Shown here one piece after another: positions 1,163 through 5,335 of a stretch of DNA of 64,000 nucleotides. The position numbers and the translations under genes are program-made. This DNA is from Shimia aestuarii (GTDB lineage: Bacteria; Pseudomonadota; Alphaproteobacteria; Rhodobacterales; Rhodobacteraceae): contig NZ_JAKVRD010000004.1 of assembly GCF_022814865.1 (NCBI RefSeq), forward strand, positions 62,001-126,000, read 5' to 3'. How positions within the stretch are numbered: the first letter of the stretch is position 1; the number at the start of each line of letters is the position of its first letter. The notes under the pieces are model-generated. The model was not told the DNA's origin, ran no database searches, and worked only from the letters and a program-made list of their open reading frames with translations.

Positions 1163-3037
1163 CTACCCCGCCTTGCGCATCCCGAGCACGCGGGCGCGTT
1201 TGCGCGGATCGCTGTCAAACAGGCTGGCAAGCTGTTCGGTCATCGCCCCGGCAAGTTGTTCGACATCCGTGATGGTGACCGCGCGTTCATAATAGCGCGT
1301 CACGTCATGTCCGATGCCGATGGCGAGAAGCTCAACCGCCTTGCGTTTCTCAACCATGGCGATGACATCGCGCAGGTGTTTTTCGAGGTAGTTGGCCGGG
1401 TTGACCGAAAGCGTCGAGTCGTCGACCGGCGCCCCGTCCGAAATCACCATGAGGATCTTACGCGCCTCGCGGCGGGCGACCATGCGGCGGTGCGCCCATT
1501 CAAGCGCCTCGCCGTCGATGTTTTCCTTCAGAAGCCCCTCTTTCATCATCAGACCGAGGTTCACATGGCTGCGCCGCCAAGGGGCGTCGGCGGATTTGTA
1601 GATGATGTGGCGCAGGTCGTTGAGGCGGCCCGGTTGTTGCGGACGGCCTTCGTTAAGCCATTTCTCACGGCTCTGGCCGCCTTTCCACGCGCGTGTGGTG
1701 AAGCCGAGGATCTCGACCTTGACGTTGCAGCGTTCAAGCGTGCGGGCCAGAACGTCGGCGCAGATGGCCGCGATGGAGATTGGGCGGCCGCGCATGGAAC
1801 CGGAGTTGTCGAGCAGCAGCGTCACCACCGTGTCGCGGAACTCGGTGTCTTTCTCGACCTTAAAGGAAAGCGGCGTCGTCGGGTTGGCGACCACGCGGGC
1901 AAGACGGCCCGCATCGAGGATGCCTTCCTCGAGGTCGAATTCCCACGAGCGGTTCTGTTGTGCCTGAAGGCGGCGCTGGAGCTTGTTGGCAAGACGGCCC
2001 ACGGCGCCCTTGAGCGGTTCGAGCTGCTGGTCGAGATAGGCGCGCAGGCGTTCAAGCTCTACATGTTCTGCGAGATCTTCAGCGGCGATTTCCTCGTCGA
2101 AATCAGTCGCGAAGACCGAGTAATTCGGGTCGGCATCCGAGATCGGCTGTGGGGCGGGCGGCTCGAGCGGCGCTTCGCCGTCGGGCATTTCCACGTCATC
2201 GCCCATCTCGTCCTCGGCCATCTCGTCCATCGAGACTTGGGCCTCGGACATGTCCTGTTGTTCTTCTTGGGACTGTTCGGGGTTGGCCTCGTTCTCGTCG
2301 TCCTGGCTGTCGTCTTGGCCGGAGCTGTCGGGATCTTCGTTGTCTTCCTGCTCTTCGGCTTCGTCTTCTTGGTCGTCGTCCTCGGCATCGGGGTCTTCGC
2401 CAAGCTGATCGCCATAGCCAAGGTCTTCGATGACCTTGCGGGCAAGTTTGGCAAAGCTCTGTTGGTCGGACAGCAGCGCGTTGATATCGCCAAGCGTGTC
2501 GGCGGCTTGTTGTTCGATGTAGCCCTGCCAGAGATTCATCACGTTGCGCGCGGCCGGGGGAAGGTCACGACCGGTGGCAAGGTGGCGGACGAGATAGCCC
2601 GCCGCGGTTGCGAGCGGCGCCTCGGCGGAGTTGGTGATCTGGTCGTAGCCGCGGCTCAGGGCTTCGTTCTCGATCTTGGCGTCGATGTTTGTTGCGGTGC
2701 CGGGCATGTCGCGGGCGCCCATGGCCTCGCAGCGGGCGGTCTCCATGGCTTCGTAGAGATCGCGGGCGATGCCTTGGGCCGGGGCGTATTTCGCGTGGGT
2801 GCCATCGTCATGGTAGCGACGTTTCATGGCGAGCGCATCCGCCGTGCCGCGCGCCAAGAGCACTTCGTCGCGGCTCATCCGGCGGCTAACTTGCGGTAGG
2901 CGCATTTGTTCGCCCGACACGCCGGATGGATCAGCGCTATAGCTGACCGATAGCTCCGGATCATGGGCCATTACCTTGGTGGCCTCGGCAAGAGCCTTTT
3001 TGAACGGATCGGCGGGGTTGTCGGACTTCTTGGTCAT
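1163..3037 (-). CDS. cobT: Aerobic cobaltochelatase subunit CobT
   Basis: Subunit of the ATP-dependent CobNST chelatase that inserts cobalt into hydrogenobyrinic acid a,c-diamide in aerobic cobalamin synthesis. The 624-residue protein begins [20 protein letters not shown], the usual CobT N-terminus. It has a very acidic linker at about residues 212-292 (runs of D and E). A C-terminal von Willebrand A domain carries the MIDAS motif DNSGSM near residue 409. Length and architecture match the family. cobS lies upstream on the same strand, separated by two small genes, which suggests one transcription unit. The Shine-Dalgarno is weak, but the start is fixed by family alignment. No cobN is in the window. 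Confidence 0.97.
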
Positions 3038-3120: not shown

Positions 3121-3522
3121 TTAGCCCAAGAGCAATGCGGTGCAGCTTTTGAGCTTCTGCACGGAGAGGCGACGGGCTTGCATCTGAATGCGGGAATCGT
3201 CGGAGAAGGTCGTGCGCTGGAGCAGGGAGCTATGAGCCATCTTGGCCTCGATCCGCCAGTTGAGCACGTCGCGGACCTGCGTCGGCGGCGTCATTGCGTC
3301 GAGGATGTCGAGCACCTCGCCACGCCGATCTTGTGTGACCTCGGAAGCGGCGCCATCGAACATCCATTCGAATTCCATCTGTGCCGAAAGGCGGCCTGCG
3401 CAGGTTGCAAAGGTGCGTAGGGGATCGGAGGGAGGCATGGTTTCGGCCTGTGCGCAGATCGGTGCCGCGCATAGCGCCAAGGAGAGGGGTAGTCGGCGAA
3501 AATATGTTCTCAAACCGCTCAT
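3121..3522 (-). CDS. Small secreted protein of unknown function between cobS and cobT
   Basis: A 133-residue protein I do not recognise. Starting at the ATG ending at 3522 gives MSGLRTYFRRLPLSLALCAA then ...CAQAET, a convincing Sec signal peptide, so the mature protein should be periplasmic. The mature part has two cysteines (TCAGR and SCTAL, far apart) that could form a disulfide, and is otherwise helical and charged. Upstream in-frame ATGs at 3552 and 3621 would bury the signal peptide inside the protein. None of the starts has a strong Shine-Dalgarno. It sits between the racemase-like gene and cobT on the same strand and is probably cotranscribed, but nothing links it directly to cobalt insertion. 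Confidence 0.65.
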   Translation of the reverse strand: MSGLRTYFRRLPLSLALCAAPICAQAETMPPSDPLRTFATCAGRLSAQMEFEWMFDGAASEVTQDRRGEVLDILDAMTPPTQVRDVLNWRIEAKMAHSSLLQRTTFSDDSRIQMQARRLSVQKLKSCTALLLG

Positions 3523-3593
3523 GAAATCATCTTTGAGCAGAAATAACCGCATATCAAGTGTGCGGTTTGAAAACTTTCTCGGGTGTTTGCTGT

Positions 3594-4301
3594 CTAGGAC
3601 GTGAGATCCGAGAGGTTGCACTGGCCTGTGGCGAGGTCGGCGAGGAGCGCGACATGCACGTCGAGCGCGTCGATGACACGGTAGCCGGGGGATTGACCAT
3701 CAAAGGCAAGGTTGAGGTCTGTTCCGGCTAGGACGACCGCATCTGCGCCCTTGTCTCGCACCATCCGCGCCCCGGCATCAAGGAAGAGGGCGCGTTGCGC
3801 TTCGCTACACATCCCGGCAACGGCCATGTCCTGATAGCTTTGGCCGAGTGTTTCGATGTCGTCCTCAAGCGCGACGGCGCGTGTCTTCGTCAGCTGCCCG
3901 TAGAGGCCGGTCCGCATCACAACCCGTGTGCCCAATAGACCGACCGTGCCGAGCCCTTCGGCGGCGAAATAGGAATCAAGCGGTGTCACGGCGGAAATGA
4001 GCGGCAGGGCGGAAATGGCCTTAGTTTCCTCGAAACAGAAATGCCCGCCCAGCGAGGTAATGGCCGCGCAGTCACAGCCCGCGGCCTTGAGGCGGTCGAT
4101 CAGCGGCGCATAGAGAGCGGCCTGTGCGGTGCGATTGTCGGCGAGGTTGTTGCGGATCAGGTCCTGCACATCGGCATGAACAATCGTCAGCTCGAGCTTG
4201 CCGCCACGCGCCTCGACCGCCTTGGTCAAACGTTGATAGTAGACGACGGTCGCGGCAACGCCGATCCCGCCGATCAGGCCGATATGAAGCGGTTTAACCA
4301 A
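3594..4301 (-). CDS. Aspartate/glutamate racemase-family protein lacking both catalytic cysteines
   Basis: The 235-residue protein has the fold and length of Asp/Glu racemases: N-terminal [17 protein letters not shown] and two related halves. In active family members the two catalytic cysteines lie near residues 82 and 194, in CNT-A-H and GCTE contexts. Here the corresponding segments are ITSLGGHF (Ser83) and [10 protein letters not shown] (Gly193), so both are replaced. It is therefore unlikely to racemise amino acids by the standard two-base mechanism. The start appears to be a TTG at 4299-4301 that overlaps the cobS stop by 8 bp, implying translational coupling to cobS. The role is unknown; the position suggests a link to cobaltochelatase, which is inference. 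Confidence 0.8.
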
Positions 4302-5280
4302 GGCTCACGCTTGCGGCGCTTTCCGGCAGTTCCTCGTCAAACAGGCGTTGGTAGAACTCGGCCACGGTCTGACGTTCGAGCTCGTCACATTTGTTGAGGA
4401 AGGTCAGGCGGAAGGCATAGCCCACGTCGCGGAACACCTCGGCGTTCTCGGCCCATGTAATTACCGTGCGCGGCGACATCACGGTCGAGAGATCACCATT
4501 CATAAAGGCGGTGCGGGTGAGGTCGGCGACGGTCACCATTTGCTTGACCGTCTTGCGGCCTGCCTCGGTGTTGAAATGCGGGTTCTTGGCGAGCACGATA
4601 TTGGTCTCGGCGTCGATCGAGAGATAGTTCAGCGTCGCGACGAGGGACCAGCGGTCCATCTGTGCCTGGTTGATCTGTTGCACGCCGTGGTAGAGGCCGG
4701 TGGTGTCACCAAGGCCGACCGTGTTGGCCGTGGCGAAGAGGCGGAAGTGCTTGTGCGGGGTGATGATCTCGTTCTGGTCGAGCAGCGTCAGCTTGCCGTC
4801 AGTTTCCAGAACACGCTGGATCACGAACATCACGTCGGCGCGGCCTGCGTCGTATTCGTCAAAAACGATCGCGACGGGGTTGCGCAGTGCCCAAGGCAGG
4901 ATGCCTTCATGGAACTCGGTGACCTGCTTGCCATCGCGCAGCTTGATCGCGTCCTTGCCGATCAGGTCGATCCGGGAGATGTGGCTGTCGAGATTGACGC
5001 GCACAGCGGGCCAATTGAGGCGTGCAGCGACCTGTTCGATGTGGGTCGACTTGCCGGTGCCGTGATAGCCTTGGATCATGACGCGGCGGTTGCGGGCAAA
5101 ACCCGCGAGAATGGCCATGGTGGTGTCGGGATCGAATTTGTAGGTGGGATCGATCTCGGGGACGCGGGCGCTTTTTTCTTCGAAGCCGTGGACCACCATA
5201 TCGGTGTCGATCCCAAAGACGTCACGCACCGAAATCGCTTCGGTTGGTTTCGCGTTGATGTCGAGCAAGCCATCGTCCAT
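4294..5280 (-). CDS. cobS: Aerobic cobaltochelatase subunit CobS (AAA+ ATPase)
   Basis: AAA+ partner of CobT in the CobNST cobalt chelatase. The 328-residue protein starts [20 protein letters not shown]. It has Walker [10 protein letters not shown] at residues 71-79 and Walker B IVFDEYD near 138-144, followed by the sensor-type segment [11 protein letters not shown]. The ATG at 5278-5280 has an AGAAGGA Shine-Dalgarno; an ATG 39 bp further upstream adds an unconserved extension and was not used. It is first of the group cobS, racemase-like gene, secreted protein, cobT. A hairpin lies in its leader at 5312-5335. I looked for a cobalamin riboswitch upstream and saw none. Confidence 0.97.
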
Positions 5281-5311
5281 GGAATTCGTCCTTCTTCTCT
5301 GCGCCCCGCCG

Positions 5312-5335
5312 GGCACCAAACCCGCACTTGGTGCC
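5312..5335. other. Hairpin in the cobS leader
   Basis: GGCACCAA and TTGGTGCC form a perfect 8-bp stem with an 8-nt loop, about 30-55 nt upstream of the cobS ATG. It could be the tail of the preceding unit or a leader structure. No U-tract follows on either strand. Confidence 0.4.

Follow-up and report, generated by a model that had tools for sequence, protein, structure and literature searches.

Members of the Asp/Glu racemase superfamily are known for altering their reaction through a change at one catalytic position, as in arylmalonate decarboxylase (AMDase) and the Escherichia coli L-Asp/Glu racemase (EcL-DER). EcL-DER, with threonine at the first catalytic position (Thr83), is reported to be an active racemase (PMC12838360), and so is a RacX of Flavobacteriales, which has alanine there (Ala79; PMC8142540). 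At the second position, replacement of the cysteine by serine reportedly inactivates EcL-DER (work cited in PMC12838360) and leaves OpaE with 0.3% or less of its activity (PMC12661438). In a RacX the same replacement markedly reduced the activity without abolishing it, and the authors suggest a binding role for this cysteine (PMC12838360).

The gene considered here, labeled X, is a new variant inside this known superfamily. It was found in a 64,000-nucleotide stretch of the Shimia aestuarii genome, referred to as the window, and its coordinates and those of its neighbors are listed in Table 1. The open reading frame comprises 235 codons with zero internal stops and is thus intact. The TTG start and its 8-nt overlap with the end of cobS (4294-4301), as originally predicted, are borne out.

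Table 1. Gene X, its diagnostic codons and the neighboring features in the window.
Feature	Position	Strand	Remarks
Gene X, Asp/Glu-racemase-fold protein	3594..4301	minus	235 aa, TTG start, Pfam match, predicted model
Overlap of X start (TTG) and cobS end	4294..4301	minus	8 nt
Ser83 codon of X (racemase cysteine 1 position)	4053..4055	minus	alignment
His87 codon of X, common to canonical racemases	4041..4043	minus	alignment
Cys89 codon of X, invariant in the sampled X family	4035..4037	minus	alignment
Gly193 codon of X (racemase cysteine 2 position)	3723..3725	minus	alignment
cobS, cobaltochelatase AAA+ subunit	4294..5319	minus	TIGR01650, 585.1 bits (cut-off 558.55)
cobT, cobaltochelatase VWA subunit	1163..3037	minus	TIGR01651, 811.8 bits (cut-off 759.05)
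Short ORF between X and cobT	3121..3621	minus	start likely 3522 or 3552

X is flanked upstream by cobS and downstream by cobT, all on the same strand. The description of X as a gene between two cobaltochelatase genes thus holds for the flanks, but X and cobT are not adjacent in the window, because a separate ORF (3121 to about 3522) intervenes. Judged by eye, this ORF encodes a short secreted-looking protein with a signal-peptide-like start, and Pfam and NCBIfam profile searches with it returned zero matches. Among 20 genomes that lack X, 4 have a relative of this ORF (38-40% identity) within or close to the cobS-cobT interval, indicating that this interval collects genes. The window gave no Rfam match at the gathering score, and so no cobalamin riboswitch. 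Elsewhere the genome encodes an ordinary MurI and a further relative with two cysteines, both named from their motifs, and X is therefore not the sole member of the superfamily there. The two-cysteine relative (locus L003, 1414-2175, minus strand) is what we take to be a EutA-like gene; it adjoins an M24-peptidase-like gene, presumably as in ectoine-use clusters.

The membership of X in the superfamily follows from its match to the Pfam family Asp_Glu_race (PF01177), which reaches 73.4 bits at a cut-off of 31. None of the NCBIfam racemase models reaches its cut-off with the window protein: the score is 64.4 bits for the cysteate racemase CuyB (NF052483; cut-off 190), 58.8 for TIGR00035 (cut-off 93.1) and 40.6 for PRK10200 (cut-off 417). 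The 14 members of X from other bacterial families (see below) likewise matched these three and no further families, the bit scores given being those of the window protein only. An AlphaFold2 model of X, built from 14 sequences, has a mean pLDDT of 92.8. Its best solved match is 5hra_A, EcL-DER with D-aspartate (Z 28.6, rmsd 2.0, 225 residues), and other aspartate/glutamate racemases of similar size give Z values of 22-25. In this predicted model the two-domain racemase fold is retained, so that the Pfam score and the model together uphold the original prediction on this point. A profile search of the PDB sequences (E 0.001) returned nine proteins that are racemases or putative racemases by name, and no solved structure inside the X family.

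In an alignment to the E. coli L-DER and a Yersinia relative, Ser83 of X stands opposite Thr and Gly193 opposite Cys (T83 and C197 as numbered in PMC12838360); the two residues do occupy the catalytic positions of racemases, as had been proposed. The further claim, that two essential cysteines are lost, stands for the second position and needs a correction for the first. The comparison used 36 canonical, YgeA-type relatives scoring 60-100 bits against the X profile, 35 of which gave complete rows after a wrong fragment (L168) had been left out. Position 193 is Cys in 35/35. Position 83 carries no universal cysteine (Thr 25, Ala 5, Ser 4, Cys 1), and the four relatives with Ser83 retain C193. 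Ser83 is thus a weak argument for altered catalysis, because active relatives have Thr or Ala at this place, and Gly193 is the telling change, since the cysteine is present in all 35 relatives and the glycine is invariant in X.

The differences extend beyond these two positions. The canonical relatives have S14 (35/35), N84 (33/35), T85 (31/35) and H87 (35/35); X has Leu84-Gly85 and no Asn-Thr loop after position 83. As Ser14, Asn84 and Thr85 are also lost, the cleft of X differs by more than one side chain. Position 89 is mostly hydrophobic in the canonical relatives (Val 20, Leu 6 and Met 4 among the 36 rows), and the cysteine that X has there may, to judge from the alignment, be buried.

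X does not have the cysteine at the second catalytic position that characterizes a two-base racemase. It might still be a racemase or epimerase in which another residue, Cys89 or His87, replaces Cys193. Compatible with this are the shared fold, the best matches, which are racemases, the invariance of Cys89 and the tolerance of Thr or Ala at position 83 in active enzymes (PMC12838360); furthermore, the serine variant of RacX kept some activity, and the loss of the second cysteine is for that reason not proof of lost racemization. The corresponding changes in EcL-DER and OpaE (PMC12838360, PMC12661438) and the additional loss of Asn84-Thr85 speak against it, however, and we consider it very improbable.

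The conservation of X was followed in an evenly sampled set of 390 genomes of the order, in which X was called at E values up to 1e-25 in a profile search, and in 385 genomes of the class, where 217 bits or more defined X proper; no more than 7 candidates per genome were scored in a first pass. X is carried by 60/390 genomes of the order, the window genome included, and by 14 genomes of other alphaproteobacterial families in the class sample. Both counts come from profile searches that did not use the G193 pattern, although the profiles were built from G193-bearing members. G193, T194, D195, C89, Y156, Q60, F200, D211 and H216 are each present in 60/60 genomes of the order and in 14/14 of the other families, and His87 in 58/60 and 13/14, respectively. 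Residue 83 is Ser in 54/60 and Ala in 6/60 in the order, and Ser in 14/14 elsewhere. The six Ala83 copies (G104, G158, G270, G305, G369 and G404) are all among the 12 copies that lie away from cobS, so that Ser83 is found in 48/48 at the cob locus. The cobS-adjacent copies, the window's included, thus have S83 and G193 in 48/48, which is the conservation that an alignment of cobS-linked orthologues had been proposed to reveal. In addition, G193 occurs in 86/86 members of a set of loci that includes the best 80 of 294, a figure that is partly the outcome of selection because the search pattern behind these 80 loci ([AG]GTD) itself contains G193. A wider set of 133 sequences contains repeated copies of the same genomes.

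For 18 close pairs (>86% identity) among 27 sequences, dN/dS ranged from 0.064 to 0.208; the window gene enters one of these pairs only, over a 77-aa fragment. X is under purifying selection and is maintained where it is present. The view that it is simply a decaying racemase copy could draw on the loss of the catalytic cysteines, on the absence of X from 330/390 genomes, and on a remnant in one genome (G004) and a split copy in another (G497). Yet the reading frame is intact in the window copy and in its orthologues, with the dN/dS values just given, the set of residues is invariant across many genera, and the locus yielded no orthologue that bears the cysteines. Decay of the window copy is ruled out by dN/dS and residue invariance, and this alternative retains practically no probability; other copies (G004, G497) have decayed. 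The same observations favor the original prediction of a catalytically altered and fixed, hence non-racemase, member.

The position of X next to cobS has led to the proposal that it assists the chelatase. In 48/60 X-bearing genomes of the order, X follows cobS in the same orientation at a distance of at most 1 kb, with a spacing of 11-860 nt measured from profile end to profile start. Among the best 80 of 294 named loci, which were kept by identity and so lean to the lineage of the window, X is flanked by cobS upstream and by cobT downstream in 68/80, all on one strand. A possible start of X falls within 15 nt of the cobS stop in 24 of these 68 loci, and the start of cobT, as extrapolated from the alignment, lies -15 to +10 nt from the X stop in 34/68, 23 of them with a 4-nt overlap. 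Such tight junctions hint that the link to CobT is more than casual, and a link to cobalamin may exist in those lineages that keep X at cob. A racemase-like gene between cobS and cobT was not the subject of any paper among the literature matches listed, as judged from titles and the beginnings of abstracts.

These data would suit a role in which X assists the aerobic cobaltochelatase or cobalamin synthesis and is produced in a fixed ratio with CobS and CobT. However, CobS is encoded by 390/390 genomes of the order and X by 60, so that X is not present wherever CobS and CobT are; a cobaltochelatase requirement for X was rejected on the 330 CobS genomes without it, such a need being unlikely. 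Furthermore, X lies away from cobS in 12/60 genomes of the order, and in the 14 genomes of other families it is never near cobS: in 13/14 cobS is on another contig or >200 kb away, and the remaining genome (78% complete) gave no CobS match. The presence of CobS in these 13/14 genomes was dropped as evidence of a link because the class background is 173/221, which renders the co-occurrence uninformative. Copies of X that left the cob locus nest in the tree among the cob-linked ones, other genes occupy the cobS-cobT interval too, and in G004 X is reduced to a remnant. Chelatase assistance as the main role of X was accordingly not supported, and an accessory of this kind is distinctly unlikely. 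An examination of 20 cobS loci from X-less genomes, a non-random choice made mostly from the best CobS scores, gave no match to the X and canonical racemase profiles in 19; the twentieth is the locus of the G004 remnant.

This remnant, in a genome of the same genus that is without X, is a 37-residue stretch directly behind cobS that is 49% identical to X residues 188-224 (locus L234, match at about 5110-5220). It is likely a relic of X loss, to judge from this match and its place, and the loss of X would thus be tolerated. X is patchy within the genus as well: 3/24 other genomes matched at the X level, namely G001, G005 and, with a fragment, G021. The X of G497 (L209, G497:C1:2159966-2160632) consists of two overlapping match pieces and looks split.

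In a phylum sample of 398 genomes, X-level matches were restricted to the same class, and the best match outside reached 97 bits. A tree of 103 sequences recovered X as a clade (SH-aLRT 99) and separated X plus a small sister group from the canonical relatives (SH-aLRT 100); it was built by a quick method that carries a long-branch warning, and the canonical input was the first 26 rows over 200 aa. The sister group (L160, L161 and L162) has neither catalytic cysteine, shows the motifs IGA..PHI and AG[ST]E and lacks Cys89 in 2/3 members. No family name was found for these three sequences, and five sister-group loci, one of them without aligned residues, were left out of the residue counts.

Within X, 12/14 copies of other families branch outside the cob-linked ones; two (L146 and L147) fall among the cob-linked copies, as do several relocated ones of Rhodobacterales, and one further copy from Rhodobacterales (L239) diverges at the base of X. 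With the root set by the chosen outgroup, this branching order suggests that the position between cobS and cobT was gained later and was then left again. Four Boseaceae/Rhizobiales copies (L070, L083, L087 and L103) are 69-73% identical to the window protein and have a shared context of their own; their closeness suggests transfer between orders. An X with 71% identity was also met in a metagenome-assembled genome labeled Gammaproteobacteria (L099), possibly on a mis-binned contig. Spread of X by plasmids was considered and set aside, since 72,556 plasmid records contained no tblastn match at E 1e-10.

Outside the cob operon the neighbors of X are diverse. In two genomes of the same genus (L242, L244) X is immediately followed by a Ser/Thr dehydratase gene, and a choline-dehydrogenase-like GMC oxidoreductase is nearby in two genomes (L097, L238; L097 and L264 represent the same genome). 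trpA is found near one copy (L236), a methyltransferase near X at four Boseaceae/Rhizobiales loci, and regulators at several others (AraC-type at L214, L240 and L239, TetR at L237, LysR at L209); the assignments at L238 and L244 and those of three of the four methyltransferases come from BLAST clustering only. Further neighbors include an integrase, IF-3, a glyoxalase-family gene and genes without a Pfam match. No common partner gene emerged among these loci, the recurrent families being mostly confined to close relatives, and because the neighbors vary by lineage they do not point to a single pathway. They would be more in keeping with an inducible or metabolic function than with a structural one.

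The explanation that we favor, with a probability of roughly 55%, is that X is a repurposed member of the fold that acts on, or specifically binds, a small acid or amino acid, and that the chelatase is independent of it. X forms an alphaproteobacterial subfamily of its own within the Asp/Glu racemase fold, with Ser or Ala at 83 and an invariant Gly at 193 in place of the two-base cysteine pair. Gln60, Cys89, Tyr156, Asp195 and Phe200 make up another, invariant set, and His87, Thr194, Asp211 and His216 are shared with the racemases. The site of action would be the interdomain cleft, no 1,1-proton transfer by two thiols would take place, and the candidate acting residues are His87, Asp195, His216 and perhaps Cys89. 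The location between cobS and cobT is probably derived within Rhodobacterales, as an operon position that would give co-expression, and the chelatase would not need X.

The two changed classical positions, the second invariantly Gly, and the retained fold could also describe a non-catalytic protein, that is, a pseudoenzyme that binds a ligand or regulates on a racemase scaffold. We regard this as unlikely, because X keeps polar residues common to the enzymes (T194, D211 and H216, with H87 in 58/60) and because D195 and others are invariant. X is probably catalytic. A more specific and doubtful proposal is an unrecognised enzyme family of alphaproteobacteria, with the fold rebuilt around His87, Cys89, Asp195 and His216, without the thiol pair, for a new reaction whose substrate would be a small acid or amino acid; in many Rhodobacterales, co-translation with the cobaltochelatase ATPase subunits would tie the supply of its product to B12 synthesis.

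Genomes probably carry X annotated as "Asp/Glu racemase", a name against which its residues argue. The frequent position of X between cobS and cobT offers a simple genetic test of the cobalamin link.

Among the known systems, EcL-DER/YgeA (PDB 5ELL, 5HRA) is like X in its fold over 225 residues and in the non-cysteine residue 83, and most YgeA-type relatives share His87, Thr194, Asp211 and His216 with it. In contrast, EcL-DER uses Cys197 where X has Gly193, the identity is about 20%, and the YgeA-type Asn84-Thr85 and Ser14 are missing in X. CuyB (NF052483) is the best NCBIfam model with a nearly full-length match, but X scores far below the cut-off noted above (64.4 versus 190). EutA-type proteins, which serve in ectoine use, belong to the same superfamily, whereas the EutA-like paralogue of L003 has, by eye, Cys-Thr motifs at both places. 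Another parallel is AMDase, a superfamily member in which one cysteine is replaced by Gly and the reaction is a different one, as described in PMC4996985. Unlike X, AMDase has the Gly at the first position and keeps Cys188 at the second (PMC4996985); X, with Ser at the first and Gly at the second, does not show the AMDase residue pattern, and a conserved clade that lacks both cysteines would widen the known scope of the racemase fold.
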